From NCBI RefSeq assembly GCF_914271545.1, contig NZ_CAJZAH010000002.1:310001-374000 (forward strand): 64,000 nt of DNA, given 5' to 3'. The DNA comes from Cupriavidus respiraculi (GTDB lineage: Bacteria > Pseudomonadota > Gammaproteobacteria > Burkholderiales > Burkholderiaceae). The translations under genes and the position numbers were made by a program. Of the stretch, positions 37,282 to 42,715 are shown piece after piece. The notes below the pieces were generated by a model. That model made no database searches, was not told the DNA's origin, and saw nothing but the letters and a program-made list of their open reading frames with translations. Each line of letters opens with the position of its first letter. Position 1 is the first letter of the stretch.

Positions 37282-38088
37282 TCAGGCCGCCATCGCGCGC
37301 CGCTCGTCGTCGGTCAGTTCCGGGCCATCGAGCGTGACGCGCGAATGGTCGTGGCGGAACTTGTTGATGATGGGCTTGAGCTCGTCCTTGACATGAGCCT
37401 CGCTATAGCCGTTGAACAGATGTCCCAGCAGGCCGCGGCGCAGGTCGCTGGTGCCCATGAACCAGTCCGCGATCGGGAACGTCAGGTTCATGTTGTACTT
37501 CATCATGATGCCCATGTTGTGGTGCGCGGTGTGATGGCGGCGGATGGTGTTGATGAAGGGCACGTTGCGCACGAACCAGTTGTCGTGCACGTGGCAGCAG
37601 TAGTGGAAGGTCTCGTAGACCAGGTACTGCGCCACCATGGTCATGAATACGATATAGCCGGCATTGGCATTGAAGATCACCGAAGCCAGGTAGCCGAGCG
37701 CCCCGCCCCCCACGCCGAGCGTGGCCAGCACGCGCCACGGAAAGAACACGATGCGGAATTCGCGCGTGGTGTCGATGGTCGGTTCCTCGTCGGTGAAGTA
37801 CTGGTGATGCTGGCGCGTATGGCGCTCGTAGATGGCGCGCAGCGCGAACACGTCGACCTTGCGGTGCATCACATACCGGTGCATGAACCACTCGACGAAA
37901 TTGCCGGCGAGGAACACCGGCAGCACCAGCGCCCACTCCCACGTCGGCGCCTGCAGACGGGTAATGGCGTAGTACAGCGCCGCGGCACCGACGCCGTAGA
38001 TCACGACGATATGCAGCAGGCCGTTGTAGAGCGGGCTGATGTCGGCCTTGTACTGTTCCCGGAATTTGCGCTGGCGTTCGGTCATCAT
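37282..38088 (-). CDS. membrane fatty acid hydroxylase / sterol desaturase superfamily protein
   Basis: A 268-residue integral membrane di-iron enzyme. Histidine clusters are complete: H70-RYVM-H75, H90-TRQ-H94-H95, H162/H166 and H185-H186-TA-H189-H190. About four hydrophobic spans (~23-41, 51-69, 117-137, 143-160) carry them. The superfamily hydroxylates or desaturates lipids and sterols; the substrate here is unknown. AGGAG precedes the ATG at 38088. Upstream is a palindrome shared with the MFS and hydrolase promoters, so it is probably part of the GntR-controlled catabolic group to its right. Confidence 0.87.
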   Translation of the reverse strand: MMTERQRKFREQYKADISPLYNGLLHIVVIYGVGAAALYYAITRLQAPTWEWALVLPVFLAGNFVEWFMHRYVMHRKVDVFALRAIYERHTRQHHQYFTDEEPTIDTTREFRIVFFPWRVLATLGVGGGALGYLASVIFNANAGYIVFMTMVAQYLVYETFHYCCHVHDNWFVRNVPFINTIRRHHTAHHNMGIMMKYNMNLTFPIADWFMGTSDLRRGLLGHLFNGYSEAHVKDELKPIINKFRHDHSRVTLDGPELTDDERRAMAA

Positions 38089-38118
38089 GGCGGTCTCCTG
38101 ATTCTTGGTGATACGTAA

Positions 38119-38130
38119 CTAATATATTAG
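38119..38130. promoter_or_regulatory. palindromic operator CTAATATATTAG, site 1
   Basis: A perfect 12-base palindrome, extended to 14 by flanking A and T (38118-38131), 30 bases upstream of the hydroxylase ATG. It has near-identical copies at 39676 and 41860. Likely operator for the GntR regulator at 42002. Confidence 0.75.
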
Positions 38131-38197
38131 TGGGATACAGCATGATGTCAAGGCACGATTTTGCCTTGGCGCGCCGCGCGCGCACCGCACGAAAGAG

Positions 38198-38225
38198 AAA
38201 GGCCCCTGGCAAGCCAGGGGCCTTT
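38198..38225 (-). terminator. terminator after the MFS transporter gene
   Basis: AAAGGCCCCTGGC (38198-38210) and GCCAGGGGCCTTT (38213-38225) are perfect arms with a tiny loop. On the minus strand the hairpin is followed by CTCTTTC. It lies 25 bases after the MFS stop. Confidence 0.8.
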
Positions 38226-38250
38226 CATCGTTGGCGGGGAGCCATGCGGG

Positions 38251-39630
38251 CTAGTGCGAGACCTCTTCCAGCGACTTGCCCTTGGTCTCTACGCCGAGTA
38301 CCAGCACCGCCACCGCCGCCACGCCGAACGACAGCGCGCCGAGCGTGAACACCCCGCCCTGCCCGGTGACCGGCAGCAGCACGCCGACCAGGAACGGCCC
38401 CGCGAGCGACCCGATGCGGCCGATCGACGACGCGAAGCCGGAGCCCGTGGCCCGGGAACGCGTCGGATACAGCTCGGGGGTGTAGGCATACAGCACGGAC
38501 CACATGCCGAACATGAAGAACTGCATGCAGAGCCCCGCCGCGATCAGCTGCTCCACGGGCAGGCGCAGCGCCGCGGCCTGTCCGTAGGCGTAAGCGGCGA
38601 CGGCGCTGCCGATCAGCATCAGCGCGCAGGTCGGCTTGCGCCCCCATTTCTCCAGCAGCCAGGCCGAGAACAGGAAGCCCGGGATGCCGGCCAGCGAGAT
38701 GTAGATGGTGTACAGCACCGACTTGGTGACCTCGTAACCGGCCTGCTGCAGCAGCGCGCCCAGCCATGAGGTCAGGCCGTAGTAGCCCAGCAGCGCGAAG
38801 AACCACACGGCCCACAGCATCACGGTGCGCTTGGCGTACGGCCCGTGCCACAGCTCGGAGAACAGCGCCTTGCGCGGGCGGCGCGCCGACACGGGGAAGT
38901 CGTCGGCCACCGGAGGCAGCGGGCGTCCGCTGGCGCGCTGCACCCGCTTCTCGATGTCCGCCATGATGGCGTCGGCCTCGTTGCGGCGACCCACCTCCTC
39001 GAGCCAGCGCGGGCTTTCGGGAACGCGCTGCCGCACCACGAACACGAAGACCGCGGGCACGGCCAGCGCGATGAACATGCCGCGCCAGCCGATATGCGGC
39101 AACAGCACGTAGGTCAGCGCGCCGGCGGCGATAAAGCCGATGGGCCAGAACCCTTCGAGGATCGCCACATACTTGCCCCGGCTCTTCGCCGGCACGATCT
39201 CGGAAACCATCGACAGGCCGATGGGAAACTCCATGCCCATGCCGAAGCCGAGCAGCACGCGATAGAGCATCAGCGCGGTCACGCTGTCCGCCAGCCCGCA
39301 CATGAGACTGCCCACGCCCCAGAAGATCATGCTGACCTGGAATACCGGCTTGCGTCCGAAGCGGTCGGCCAGCATGCCGGCGGAGGCGGCGCCCAGGAAC
39401 ATGCCGAGAAAGCTGGAACTGGCCAGCAGCCCCGCCTGCGCCGCCGTCAATCCGAACTCCGCCTTGATCGAGCCGAGCACGAACGTCATCAGGCCGAGAT
39501 CCATCGAATCGAAGAACCATGCGGTGGCGATGATGCCGAACAACGTGCGCTGATAGCCCGTCATGGGCAATCGTTCCAGCCGGGCTGCGATCCCGGCGTC
39601 CAGCCTGAGGCTGCCTGCCGACATATCCAT
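38251..39630 (-). CDS. MFS transporter, sugar/aromatic-acid porter type
   Basis: A 459-residue transporter with 12 predicted spans. The conserved loop 2-3 motif ADRFGRKP (88-95), the PESPRWLEE motif after TM6 and PELYPTRSRATG before TM11 place it in the MFS sugar/metabolite porter group that also includes aromatic acid uptake systems. Context with a hydrolase, dehydrogenase and hydroxylase under a shared operator suggests uptake of the compound they degrade. CAGGAGAC precedes the ATG at 39630. Substrate unknown. Confidence 0.9.
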   Translation of the reverse strand: MDMSAGSLRLDAGIAARLERLPMTGYQRTLFGIIATAWFFDSMDLGLMTFVLGSIKAEFGLTAAQAGLLASSSFLGMFLGAASAGMLADRFGRKPVFQVSMIFWGVGSLMCGLADSVTALMLYRVLLGFGMGMEFPIGLSMVSEIVPAKSRGKYVAILEGFWPIGFIAAGALTYVLLPHIGWRGMFIALAVPAVFVFVVRQRVPESPRWLEEVGRRNEADAIMADIEKRVQRASGRPLPPVADDFPVSARRPRKALFSELWHGPYAKRTVMLWAVWFFALLGYYGLTSWLGALLQQAGYEVTKSVLYTIYISLAGIPGFLFSAWLLEKWGRKPTCALMLIGSAVAAYAYGQAAALRLPVEQLIAAGLCMQFFMFGMWSVLYAYTPELYPTRSRATGSGFASSIGRIGSLAGPFLVGVLLPVTGQGGVFTLGALSFGVAAVAVLVLGVETKGKSLEEVSH

Positions 39631-39675
39631 GCTTGTCTCCTGTAAGGGTATGACGGCTTCCCTGTCGGCCGCTTG

Positions 39676-39687
39676 CTAATATGTTAG
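39676..39687. promoter_or_regulatory. palindromic operator CTAATATGTTAG, site 2
   Basis: One-base variant of the CTAATATATTAG palindrome, 45 bases upstream of the MFS transporter ATG. The flank TTG after it also matches site 3 (TTAGTTG). Confidence 0.72.
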
Positions 39688-39787
39688 TTGCATCGCAGAA
39701 GCATTCAAGTGATAAACATTACTCCCCGGGAAAACCCCGAAGATGCGATGCAGGGCCGAAGGCCCTGCCCCCTGCATCGCCTCCGGC

Positions 39788-41053
39788 TCATGCCGCGCGC
39801 CGGCCTTCCCCGCCGGCCCCGGCCAGCGTGCCGCCCCAGGCGTTGCGGATGATGGCGGCGTAGCGCGACGGAACGTCGGCCACAGGAAACGCCTTGGCCA
39901 GCCTCGCCACGCCCAGCGCGTCGGAGGTCAGGCGCGGCAGTTGCGCCTCGCCGATGCCGAATGCGGCCAGATCGCCGGGAATGCCGAGCTCCTCCACCAG
40001 CTCGCGGATCACGACCGGCAGCCGGCGCACGGCCAGCGCCTCGTCGGCGTCCGCGATGCCGAACAGCCGCGCGACGTCGAGCAGTTCGCCGTGGCGCTCA
40101 TGGCGCAGCGCGTCCAGCACATACGGCAGCACCACCGCATTGGTACTGCCGTGGGACTGGTGCGTGATGCCGGCCACGCCGTAGGCGATGCCGTGCACCG
40201 CGTTCAGGCCCGCGCTTCCGTACGACAGGGCCGCATAGAGGCTGGCGTAGGCCATGCCGATGCGGGCCTCGGTATCGGCGCCGTCGCGGTAGACCCGCCG
40301 CAGAAAGGTCGCGCACAGCCGGATCGACTCGCGGGCGAACAGCATGGTCAGGCCATTGCGGCCGCTGTAGCCCGGGTCCGGGTTGCCGGCCCGGTCGCAG
40401 GCCGCTGAATCCTGCGTCAGGTACGACTCGACCGCATGCGTCAGAGCATCGATGCCCGCGTCCGCGGTGACGCGCGGCGGGCAGGTGTAGGTGAATTCCG
40501 GATCGATCACGGCGATCGCCGGGCGCAGCCGGTTGTCCATCACGGCGATCTTGGTGGCATTGGCCGGATCGACCAGAATCGCGCCCGGCGTGGCTTCCGA
40601 TCCCGTGCCCGCCGTGGTGGGCAGCGCGACCAGGGGAAGGACCGGCGTGTCCCGGCCGATGCCCGCCGCGAAATCGCCGATCGGCCTGCCCGCGGGCAAG
40701 GTCAGGCACAGCGCCTTGGCCAGGTCGATATTGCTGCCGCCGCCGAGCGCGATGACATGGTCCGGTGTGCGGCCGCCGAGTTGCGCGCGCACCGCCGCGG
40801 TCGCCGCGTCGCACAGCGTGGTGGTCGGATCGGCCATGCCGCCGTCATGGACCAGCGTATCGATGTCCAGCGCGCGCGCCGCCGCCAGGTACTCGTCCAC
40901 CCAAGGCGTCCGTCCGGTGAAGAAGGTATCGGTCACCAGCACACCCGTGCGGTATCCCAGCCGATGCAGCAGGGCGGGCAGCCCACCCCGCGTACCGGGA
41001 CCGACGACGAGGCGCCCGGGGGCGCAGAAAAAGACCTGATCTTCGATTCTCAT
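39788..41053 (-). CDS. iron-type (group III) alcohol dehydrogenase
   Basis: A 421-residue NAD(P)-dependent dehydrogenase. The nucleotide loop is GGGSNIDLAK (104-113), and the metal ligands are probably D202, H206, H287 and H301 (IDALTHAVE, AVHGIAYG, THQSHG). The gap between H206 and H287 is ~18 residues longer than in classical members, due to an insertion around NPDPGYSGRNG. It could act as an alcohol, hydroxyacid or maleylacetate-type dehydrogenase. Its ATG at 41053 overlaps the stop of the upstream hydrolase (ATGA), so the two are co-translated. Confidence 0.88.
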   Translation of the reverse strand: MRIEDQVFFCAPGRLVVGPGTRGGLPALLHRLGYRTGVLVTDTFFTGRTPWVDEYLAAARALDIDTLVHDGGMADPTTTLCDAATAAVRAQLGGRTPDHVIALGGGSNIDLAKALCLTLPAGRPIGDFAAGIGRDTPVLPLVALPTTAGTGSEATPGAILVDPANATKIAVMDNRLRPAIAVIDPEFTYTCPPRVTADAGIDALTHAVESYLTQDSAACDRAGNPDPGYSGRNGLTMLFARESIRLCATFLRRVYRDGADTEARIGMAYASLYAALSYGSAGLNAVHGIAYGVAGITHQSHGSTNAVVLPYVLDALRHERHGELLDVARLFGIADADEALAVRRLPVVIRELVEELGIPGDLAAFGIGEAQLPRLTSDALGVARLAKAFPVADVPSRYAAIIRNAWGGTLAGAGGEGRRAA

Positions 41054-41811
41054 TGGGACTCCTGGTGGGCAATGGATCCGGCGCGAGCGACGGGGCACAG
41101 ATGGGGAAGACGCGCGGCGAACGCCTCGGCGACCTGCCGGGTGTGGGTCGAAAGAATGCCGTGGCCCGCATCGGGCAGCATCGCCAGCGTCGCGTTGGGC
41201 AGGCCCGCCGCCAGCGTTCGCGCATGCGCGGCCGGGCAATCCTCGTCGCGCTCGCCATGCAGCACGAGCGCCGGCAAGGCAATGCGGGGCAGCAGTCCGC
41301 GCTGGTCGGTGCCGCGCAATGCCTGCCACGTCCATGCCACGGTGGTGTGGTCCGCGGCTTCCGCCAGTCCGAGCCTGCGCTCGCGCTCGGCGATCTCCCG
41401 CAACAGCACGGTCTCGTCGGTGGCACGGAACCACGCCACCGCATCCAGCCGGGGGGTGCCGGACAGCAGCGCAAGACCGCAGGGCGCGTGCAGTCGCGGC
41501 TCGCTCATGCAACGCGCGGCATAGGCGAGCGCGACGGATACGCCCATGCTCCATCCCGCCAGCACGAAGGGACGCCCGCCGGTCTCGGCATCGATCACGT
41601 CGCGGAGCATCCGGGCATAGCTGTCCAGCGTGCAGGCGTCACGCGCCGGCGGCGGCGGCGCGTTGCCCCGCCCCCACAGATTCGGCAGCACGAAGGTGCA
41701 TTGGCTGCCCAAGGCCTGCGCCACCGGCATCCATGACGCGCGCGTGCCCTGGATCCCATGCAGCGCCACCACCATCACGGGCCCCTGCCCGGCACGTACG
41801 ACGTCCATCAT
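41050..41811 (-). CDS. alpha/beta hydrolase of the GntR-linked cluster
   Basis: A 253-residue alpha/beta-fold hydrolase. The nucleophile elbow is GWSMG with S88; HGERDEDCP and DAGHGI near the C terminus supply the Asp and His of the triad; LHGIQGT gives the oxyanion region. Two adjacent ATGs (41811 and 41808) follow AAGGAG; the second has the better spacing. It heads a two-gene unit with the iron-type dehydrogenase. Esterase, lactonase or C-C hydrolase activity are all possible. Confidence 0.87.
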   Translation of the reverse strand: MMDVVRAGQGPVMVVALHGIQGTRASWMPVAQALGSQCTFVLPNLWGRGNAPPPPARDACTLDSYARMLRDVIDAETGGRPFVLAGWSMGVSVALAYAARCMSEPRLHAPCGLALLSGTPRLDAVAWFRATDETVLLREIAERERRLGLAEAADHTTVAWTWQALRGTDQRGLLPRIALPALVLHGERDEDCPAAHARTLAAGLPNATLAMLPDAGHGILSTHTRQVAEAFAARLPHLCPVARAGSIAHQESQ

Positions 41812-41859
41812 TGTCTCCTTGTCGCGCGCCCGCCGGGCGTGAGACGTTGCTGTCGCCTT

Positions 41860-41871
41860 CTGATATATTAG
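41860..41871. promoter_or_regulatory. palindromic operator CTGATATATTAG, site 3
   Basis: One-base variant of the CTAATATATTAG palindrome. It lies between the hydrolase (ATG 48 bases to the left) and the divergent GntR gene, so it could serve both the catabolic unit and autoregulation. Confidence 0.72.
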
Positions 41872-42001
41872 TTGAATAATAGCAGCAGGCGGCACGATGG
41901 CAATCAAGGAATCGGCGATGGTGGATGGGAGGCCGGATGGGCGGCCGGAGGCGGTGATGGCGTCATATACAATCGGTATTCCGCGCACTTCACCGAACGC
42001 A

Positions 42002-42715
42002 ATGACTGGCAAGACGGCAATCCGCAGCAAGGCAGCCCGCGACGACACGGCCGACGAGACGCCCGGCCAGCGCGGACGATTGACCGACCTCGCGTACGAG
42101 CAGATCGAGGAAGCCATCATTACGCTGCGGCTGGCTCCGGGCTCGTCGCTCTCCGAATTGCAGCTGAGCGAGATGACCGGCATCGGCCGCACGCCGATCC
42201 GCGAAGCCATCCAGCGACTCGCCCGCGAACACCTGGTGGTCGTGCTGCCGCAACGCGGCCTGCTGGTGCCGCCGATCGACGTGGCGAAGCAACTGCGCCT
42301 GCTGGAGACGCGGCGTGAAGTCGAACGGCTGATCTGCCGCAGCGCGGCGCGCCGGGCCAATGCGGAGGAACGCGCCCACTTCAAGCGGCTGGCAACGGAA
42401 TTCGCGCAGGCGGGCAAGAGCGGCGACGACGTGTCCTTCGTGCGCGCCGACCGCGAGTTCAACGAGCTATGCCTCGCGACGTGCCGCAACGAATTCGCCG
42501 AGGGCGCGATGCGGCTGATGCACGGGCTGTCGCGGCGCTTCTGGTACCTGCACTACAAGGAGGCGGCGGACCTGCCGCAGATGGCCAAGCTCCACGCCAA
42601 TGTGGCCGCCGCCATCGCCAAAGGCGATATCGACGGTGCCGGCAAGGCGCTGGATGCCCTCCTCGACAATATCGAGGACTTCACCCGCGCCACGGTACTG
42701 GGCGACCGGCGCTGA
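42002..42715 (+). CDS. GntR-family (FCD-domain) transcriptional regulator
   Basis: A 237-residue regulator (from MTGKTAIRS). A winged helix-turn-helix is at ~26-90 with ELQLSEMTGIGRTPIREAIQRL, followed by an all-helical FCD ligand-binding domain (~100-225). The frame begins at an ATG at 41897, but the extra 35 residues are Gly/Arg/Pro-rich and a TATACAAT-like box sits at 41966-41973, so the later start is preferred; this remains uncertain. It is divergent from the hydrolase/dehydrogenase pair and is the obvious candidate for binding the CTAATATATTAG sites. Confidence 0.87.
   Translation: MTGKTAIRSKAARDDTADETPGQRGRLTDLAYEQIEEAIITLRLAPGSSLSELQLSEMTGIGRTPIREAIQRLAREHLVVVLPQRGLLVPPIDVAKQLRLLETRREVERLICRSAARRANAEERAHFKRLATEFAQAGKSGDDVSFVRADREFNELCLATCRNEFAEGAMRLMHGLSRRFWYLHYKEAADLPQMAKLHANVAAAIAKGDIDGAGKALDALLDNIEDFTRATVLGDRR

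Follow-up and report, generated by a model that had tools for sequence, protein, structure and literature searches.

Three 12-bp palindromes in a 64,000-nucleotide stretch of Cupriavidus respiraculi DNA (contig NZ_CAJZAH010000002.1, positions 310,001 to 374,000; the whole stretch is hereafter the window) are very likely, with a probability that we put at roughly 0.86, the operators of one local catabolic regulon repressed by the neighbouring FCD/VanR-type GntR regulator, P0001. Each palindrome stands before a minus-strand gene: the first before that of a membrane hydroxylase, the second before that of an MFS transporter and the third before that of an alpha/beta hydrolase. On comparative evidence such a regulon is well supported; it would be ordinary in kind, with a GT-less variant of the operator. 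The features concerned are as follows.

38119 to 38130: putative operator 1, CTAATATATTAG, a perfect 12-bp palindrome, 30 bases before the hydroxylase ATG (38088)
39676 to 39687: putative operator 2, CTAATATGTTAG, 45 bases before the MFS transporter ATG (39630)
41860 to 41871: putative operator 3, CTGATATATTAG, 48 bases before the alpha/beta hydrolase ATG (41811)
41897 to 42715, plus strand: GntR regulator P0001, FCD-type (PF00392, 58.6 bits, cut-off 27; PF07729, 76.6 bits, cut-off 24.3)

A preliminary description of the window had reported these three positions and their distances of 30, 45 and 48 bases from the ATGs, and re-reading of the sequence gave the same values. It had also described the sites as AT-rich islands with no comparable copy elsewhere in the window, and had called for a genome-wide motif scan and a comparison of relatives. 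The 91-bp stretches around operators 1, 2 and 3 indeed contain 55, 51 and 46% A+T, against 32% for the window, and all other matches to CTRATATRTTAG in the window carry at least two mismatches. Matches with up to three mismatches number 20, against 18.5 expected by chance, and therefore the exact class alone stands out. Throughout the genome of this strain (5,594,073 bases in 18 contigs, 5.59 Mb), exact CTNATATNTTAG occurs at these three places only, all within 3.8 kb and each directly before a gene. Computed from window composition, the genome-wide expectation is 0.24 (first-order) to 0.51 (base composition) for exact CTNATATNTTAG and 0.001-0.007 for exact CTAATATATTAG. One-mismatch copies of CTNATATNTTAG are not enriched in this genome, with 12 in total against 16 for the reversed-pattern control. 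The broader pattern STRAYATRTYAS has three more places in the genome, which were set aside because they have in common a longer word, GTATGTGATATATCA, and are located elsewhere; judged from the sequence, they are probably operators of another regulator. Two of them (G000:C1:1179558 and G000:C1:1179747; L252, L253) are 189 bp apart, between genes that by eye resemble those of a thiamine-diphosphate enzyme and a succinyl-CoA ligase, and the third is at G000:C2:119271 (L254).

Within the genus, 26 of 60 genomes have an orthologue of the GntR regulator (at least 76% identity), and exactly these 26 have one of the hydroxylase (at least 84%). All 26 have the operator before the hydroxylase, with up to two mismatches and 22-60 bases upstream. 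Fourteen named loci (L040-L052, L055) were also inspected at the same tolerance. The site precedes the hydroxylase in 13 of 13 (the fetched stretch of the fourteenth, L049, does not include it), the MFS gene in 12 of 14, and the alpha/beta hydrolase or iron-containing alcohol dehydrogenase gene in 14 of 14, and no further site is present elsewhere in these stretches of about 12.7 kb. In the two loci without an MFS site, L047 and L050, no hydrolase gene was found, and the MFS gene follows the dehydrogenase gene at about 0.1 kb, which suggests that dehydrogenase and transporter may belong to one transcription unit. Since the genomes surveyed overlap the named loci (G041 and L040, for example), the 14-locus and 26-genome counts are not independent.

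Outside the genus, 43 hydroxylase loci were obtained from order and phylum draws, and 40 of them (36-79% identical) were fetched at length. The three left out (G108, G322, G708) are represented by short stretches (L155, L158, L156), with no site and no GntR gene within about 1.5 kb. A P0001-type GntR (at least 45% identity) is encoded in 25 of the 40 stretches. The site, taken as at most one mismatch to CTRAYATATYAG in the 200 bp ahead of the hydroxylase, was found at 23 of the 25 GntR-positive and 0 of the 15 GntR-negative loci (Fisher 3.4e-9; composition-shuffled upstream regions, 0.15%), and at 42 of 49 against 0 of 15 after addition of 24 named loci, all GntR-positive. Conservation of the intergenic sites in relatives is thus strong, and the proposal in the preliminary description that the adjacent GntR protein is the likely binder gains support from the sites being, exceptions apart, present with the regulator, and absent without it. 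In a table of 46 rows with a 250-bp limit, 31 loci have both site and GntR, 14 have neither and one has the GntR alone. The corresponding trees contain six supported independent contrasts, of which six or five agree in direction (p 0.031-0.063, median 0.031); L198 is included in the 200-bp counts and absent from the tree. Of the reference rows listed for the trees, from which short, low-identity and stop-bearing rows had already been dropped, 41 of 43 GntR and 46 of 50 hydroxylase sequences entered the family alignments. No P0001-like protein was detected at E 1e-30 in the 15 GntR-negative genomes, one of which is 68% complete; that search included no positive genome, and the same query recovers orthologues and distant homologues in the genus search.

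Whole GntR-positive stretches are also richer in sites (36 in 404 kb) than GntR-negative ones (3 in 253 kb), the consensus being partly drawn from these loci. In the GntR-positive relatives they also precede genes for PanB-like proteins (three), PhyH2, DctP, two corrinoid proteins, alpha/beta hydrolase and iron-containing alcohol dehydrogenase. Named loci of alphaproteobacterial type (L056, L058-L061) show near-matches too, upstream of the hydroxylase or of a different gene. Four plasmid relatives carry the site within two mismatches, L068 and L072 ahead of the hydroxylase and L069 and L070 ahead of a transporter gene.

The region around each palindrome holds a candidate promoter, assigned from the sequence.

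38146 to 38151, minus strand: candidate -35 TTGACA, with a 16-bp spacer to TAATAT (38124 to 38129) inside operator 1
39703 to 39708, minus strand: candidate -35 TTGAAT, with a 16-bp spacer to TAACAT (39681 to 39686) inside operator 2
41876 to 41903, minus strand: candidate hydrolase-dehydrogenase promoter, with -35 TTGCCA (41898 to 41903), a 16-bp spacer and -10 TATTAT (41876 to 41881)

The strength of this assignment is moderate, because TTGAC at the same -35 distance is present in only 10 of the 26 genus hydroxylase orthologues. The predicted -10 of the hydroxylase promoter, and likewise that of the MFS promoter, would be covered by the operator; operator 3 starts four bases downstream of the predicted -10 TATTAT and would lie over the expected start point. 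It is conceivable that AT-rich palindromes in GC-rich DNA are mere -10 sequence read by no regulator, and TAATAT inside operator 1 would make a plausible -10. This is scarcely credible, given that the genome has three exact copies only, that operator 3 is downstream of its own predicted -10, and that all 15 GntR-less hydroxylase loci examined lack the sequence. The symmetry is moreover kept over 12 bp, operator-anchored columns averaging 1.85 bits in the 26 genus orthologues against 0.75 in the surroundings.

Because the sites overlap predicted -10 elements or start points, they are best read as those of a VanR-type FCD repressor. According to this proposal, a dimer of P0001, or a dimer of dimers, would bind CTRATATRTTAG and simultaneously block RNA polymerase at the three units. 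Operator 3, placed between the divergent hydrolase and GntR genes and 46 bases before the likely GntR start on its other side, may in addition provide autoregulation. The pathway substrate or a breakdown product, perhaps carboxylate-like, would release the repressor. The true start of P0001 is likely to be the ATG at 41918 (M8), which has AAGGA 7 bases ahead, and the listed start at 41897 falls under the candidate hydrolase promoter.

Certain GntR proteins, such as FadR, can act as activators, and the same sites and regulator might serve activation instead of repression. We consider this very unlikely, as each operator coincides with a predicted -10 element or start point, in the manner of the repressors AlkR and Atu1419 (PMC12042122, PMC7797058).

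The divergent gene beside operator 3 had been described as an FCD-type GntR gene, and the Pfam matches confirm this: with an N-terminal winged helix and a C-terminal FCD domain, both above cut-off, P0001 belongs to the FCD subfamily of the GntR superfamily. Its AlphaFold model (mean pLDDT 79.9) comprises the winged helix and six C-terminal helices (129-153, 156-175, 178-196, 199-223, 226-241 and 245-270), residues 1-54 being unordered. Six effector-domain helices place it in the VanR group as that group is delimited in PMC12042122. The best solved fold match is AlkR of the VanR group (9isw; 19% identity in the alignment), and McbR, PmiR and a Brucella regulator are also among the best matches. 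P0001 reaches no NCBIfam cut-off for the named regulators PhnR, NanR, LldR, CsiR, FadR and PdhR, the best score being 73 bits for TIGR03338 (cut-off 271.5). All 42 family members have Arg98, the counterpart of Atu1419 Arg45. The Asp/Asn plus three His that mark metal-binding FCD domains are incomplete in P0001. At what we take to be the ligand positions, D185 and H233 are invariant in the family, the first-His position is N189 in 41 of 42, and the last-His position, assigned by alignment with an IlvD-linked paralogue described below, is L255. The invariant H219 and D257 might substitute as metal ligands, and effector binding in this family may differ from the zinc-dependent kind.

The best works-like precedent appears, by analogy, to be AlkR, the GntR/VanR repressor of the membrane alkane monooxygenase gene alkB2 in Pseudomonas aeruginosa (PMC12042122). 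Both systems have a VanR-group FCD regulator, AlkR being the top fold match of the P0001 model. The AlkR palindrome likewise stands close before a membrane hydroxylase gene, at -27 to -40 from its ATG and over the -10, and regulator-enzyme couples are conserved across species (PMC12042122). The AlkR operator differs in that ATTGTCAGACAAT keeps GT/AC and has an odd centre, and the effectors of AlkR are long-chain acyl-CoAs (PMC12042122). A second parallel is Atu1419, a VanR regulator of hydroxycinnamate genes in Agrobacterium fabrum, for which copies of the short even palindrome ATGTATACAT are described at -10 elements of catabolic promoters and in its own region (PMC7797058); its recognition helix has the corresponding Arg, Thr and Arg. 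Unlike P0001, in which two of the positions are not His, Atu1419 has a three-His Zn site (PMC7797058).

Several observations weigh against the proposed repression by P0001. Seven of the 49 GntR-positive loci have no site within 200 bp of the hydroxylase (L056, L057, L060, L065, L066, L159, L161), although L056 and L060 have a near-match before an upstream gene and L161 has one at 200 bp. No near-match within two mismatches was found at L057, L062, L063 and L065, and in the Herminiimonas loci L054 and L064 the hydroxylase has a site at the same tolerance and the hydrolase has none. Among the plasmid relatives, L067 and L071 encode the GntR (55 and 51%) and the hydroxylase and have no site within two mismatches, and L069 has its site only far upstream, before an ABC-transporter gene, with the GntR (72%) 9 kb away. 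G108, one of the three loci left out, seems to be the same plasmid system as L069; because that system is GntR-bearing, counting G108 would give 23 of 26. The other 16 of the 26 genus hydroxylase orthologues have no TTGAC at the -35 distance. Furthermore, joint gain and loss of the cluster by itself leaves room for an unlinked regulator.

The operator sequence itself raises a second group of objections. FadR-subfamily operators have TKGT/ACMA boxes in common (PMC4494728), and the GT/AC boxes are lacking from the cross-genera consensus CTRAYATATYAG, which has TAAT/ATTA or TGAT/ATCA instead. FadR-subfamily operators resemble the present one in being A/T-rich palindromes, some of them even-centred (GntR, HpxS, UxuR and others), and BioR (TTATMKATAA) and NanR are given as other exceptions to TKGT/ACMA (PMC4494728). 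Additional half-sites 7-12 nt from the operator centre have been reported in the same source (PMC4494728), and an ATAT stretch 4-7 bases upstream of the operator, nearly invariant in the genus orthologues, may by analogy be such a half-site. For Atu1419, binding was abolished when G3 of ATGTATACAT was changed to A and its partner to T, that G being the base which Arg45 reads (PMC7797058). Position 3 is thus an essential G there and an A here: the inner ten bases TAATATATTA carry the very A/T pair that abolishes Atu1419 binding (PMC7797058), though Arg98 is kept in 42 of 42.

The third objection comes from the same word beside other GntR genes. P0001 is absent from 34 of the genus genomes. Eighteen of these encode an IlvD-linked FCD GntR, and 17 of the 18 contain exact CTAATATATTAG; the remaining 16 have neither, and the reversed control gave 0 of 34. 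This paralogue, encoded beside an IlvD-like dehydratase gene, is 28.5% identical to P0001 and has Gln in place of the recognition Arg. The 21 exact CTAATATATTAG sites in P0001-less genomes comprise 15 at the IlvD-like locus, five at a GudD-like/GntR locus and one other. Stretches with the IlvD-like gene and its GntR together number 27, of which 24 contain TAATATATTA. The six genomes with the GudD-like locus all also hold the IlvD-linked GntR, and ten genus genomes hold both P0001 and the IlvD-linked paralogue. In 25 genomes, 68 sites matching STAATATATTAS were assigned by hand, 56 to the present cluster, 10 beside the IlvD-linked GntR and two elsewhere (G012:C2, a GudD-like locus, and G056:C110). 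With the palindrome at two further GntR loci in other genomes of the genus, the word alone therefore neither defines the P0001 regulon nor identifies its binder. The preliminary description, which held that the palindrome defines a GntR regulon, is supported as regards the regulon, through conservation and co-occurrence, and not as regards the word as its definition. Of the findings that it had named as refuting, many unrelated copies across the genome and a lack of conservation in relatives were both looked for, and neither was observed.

Some features of these other loci may be added. In L075-L081, L083, L085-L089 and L216-L244, exact CTAATATATTAG separates an IlvD/Edd-like dehydratase gene from a divergently oriented FCD GntR gene in 24 of the 27 stretches with both genes, the flanks TTGAC...TTTAAT often being kept. 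Exact CTAATATATTAG is beside a glucarate-dehydratase-like (GudD-like) gene and a third GntR gene in six genomes (L082/L207, L084/L206, L208, L212, L213, L245). GTGATATATTAC and CTGATATATTAC are found, among the matches listed, in many genus genomes (e.g. G013:C1:981908, G016, G058), some of them with neither P0001 nor the IlvD-linked GntR.

Against this background, the palindromes could belong to a different, unlinked regulator, for instance another FCD/GntR protein, the adjacent GntR being a bystander or reading other DNA. The occurrence of the same 12-mer beside two other GntR genes in the genus fits this possibility, as does the operator having A where the Arg of Atu1419 reads G (PMC7797058); the Gln of the IlvD-linked paralogue would suit A better, Asn and Gln being described as preferring A (PMC4494728). 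Such a regulator nevertheless seems unlikely to us. No orthologue of the IlvD-linked regulator was detected in the genome of this strain at E 1e-60, the GudD-linked one not having been searched for there; 16 of the 26 P0001-bearing genus genomes have the sites without the IlvD-linked protein; and outside the genus the site tracks the P0001-type GntR, at 23 of 25 against 0 of 15 loci.

If P0001 is the binder, CTAATATATTAG might be a common GT-less operator of at least three GntR regulators, 27-31% identical, that stand beside unrelated pathways (the membrane-hydroxylase cluster and the IlvD-like and GudD-like dehydratases), a tentative proposal that we hold somewhat less probable than its opposite. 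If it is true, cross-talk would be built into the ten genomes that encode the IlvD-linked regulator as well as P0001, and P0001 would tolerate an A at the position where Atu1419 requires G despite having the same Arg. The conserved Arg, the A-T pair replacing the contacted G-C and the identical word beside diverged paralogues would together form a natural test of GntR specificity. For the widespread catabolic cluster, the analysis names a likely regulator and supplies an operator together with a rule for membership, and the operator may be used to seek further members in genomes with a P0001-type GntR.

The structural genes of the cluster are as follows.

37282 to 38088, minus strand: hydroxylase P0002, a membrane protein of the fatty-acid-hydroxylase/sterol-desaturase family, 268 aa (Pfam PF04116, 34.6 bits, cut-off 31)
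38251 to 39630, minus strand: MFS transporter P0003, 459 aa (PF07690)
39788 to 41053, minus strand: iron-containing alcohol dehydrogenase P0004, 421 aa (PF00465, PF25137)
41050 to 41811, minus strand: alpha/beta hydrolase P0005, 253 aa (PF00561, PF12697)

In P0002 the conserved His clusters (H70, H75, H90, H94, H95, H162, H166, H185, H186, H189 and H190) are invariant in 47 sequences, and its nearest fold is the Scs7p hydroxylase (4zr1, E 7.6e-3, TM 0.51); AlkB2 belongs to another enzyme family. P0003 is closest to the aromatic acid/H+ symport subfamily yet below its threshold (TIGR00895, 292 bits, cut-off 418.55), and the P0005 gene overlaps the start of the P0004 gene by four bases. Neither the neighbourhoods of relatives nor the protein families or structures allow a substrate of the cluster to be named, and combining the cluster gene names in a literature search gave no paper pointing to one. 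As for the operator, no report pairing TAATATATTA with GntR was found in a search that did not extend to RegPrecise and supplements, so that an earlier prediction is possible. Among the papers listed, no prior description of AATATATT with GntR was recognised, none for TGATATATCA is recognisably on GntR, and none for TAATATATTA with palindrome or operator contains the motif.

Relatives of the cluster have in common genes for PhyH, DctP/DctM, PanB-like, DUF6166, alpha/beta hydrolase and dehydrogenase proteins. Clusters with a hydroxylase and a GntR are widespread (L172, L174, L180-L182, L196 and plasmid loci L067-L072), and their contents, which vary by locus, include PhyH-like dioxygenases, TRAP, ABC or MFS transporters, a PanB-like enzyme, a DUF6166 protein, alpha/beta hydrolases and alcohol dehydrogenases; that of L182 adds corrinoid and methyltransferase-like genes. 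In the window, the cluster is flanked by genes that by eye are tex-like and kup-like.

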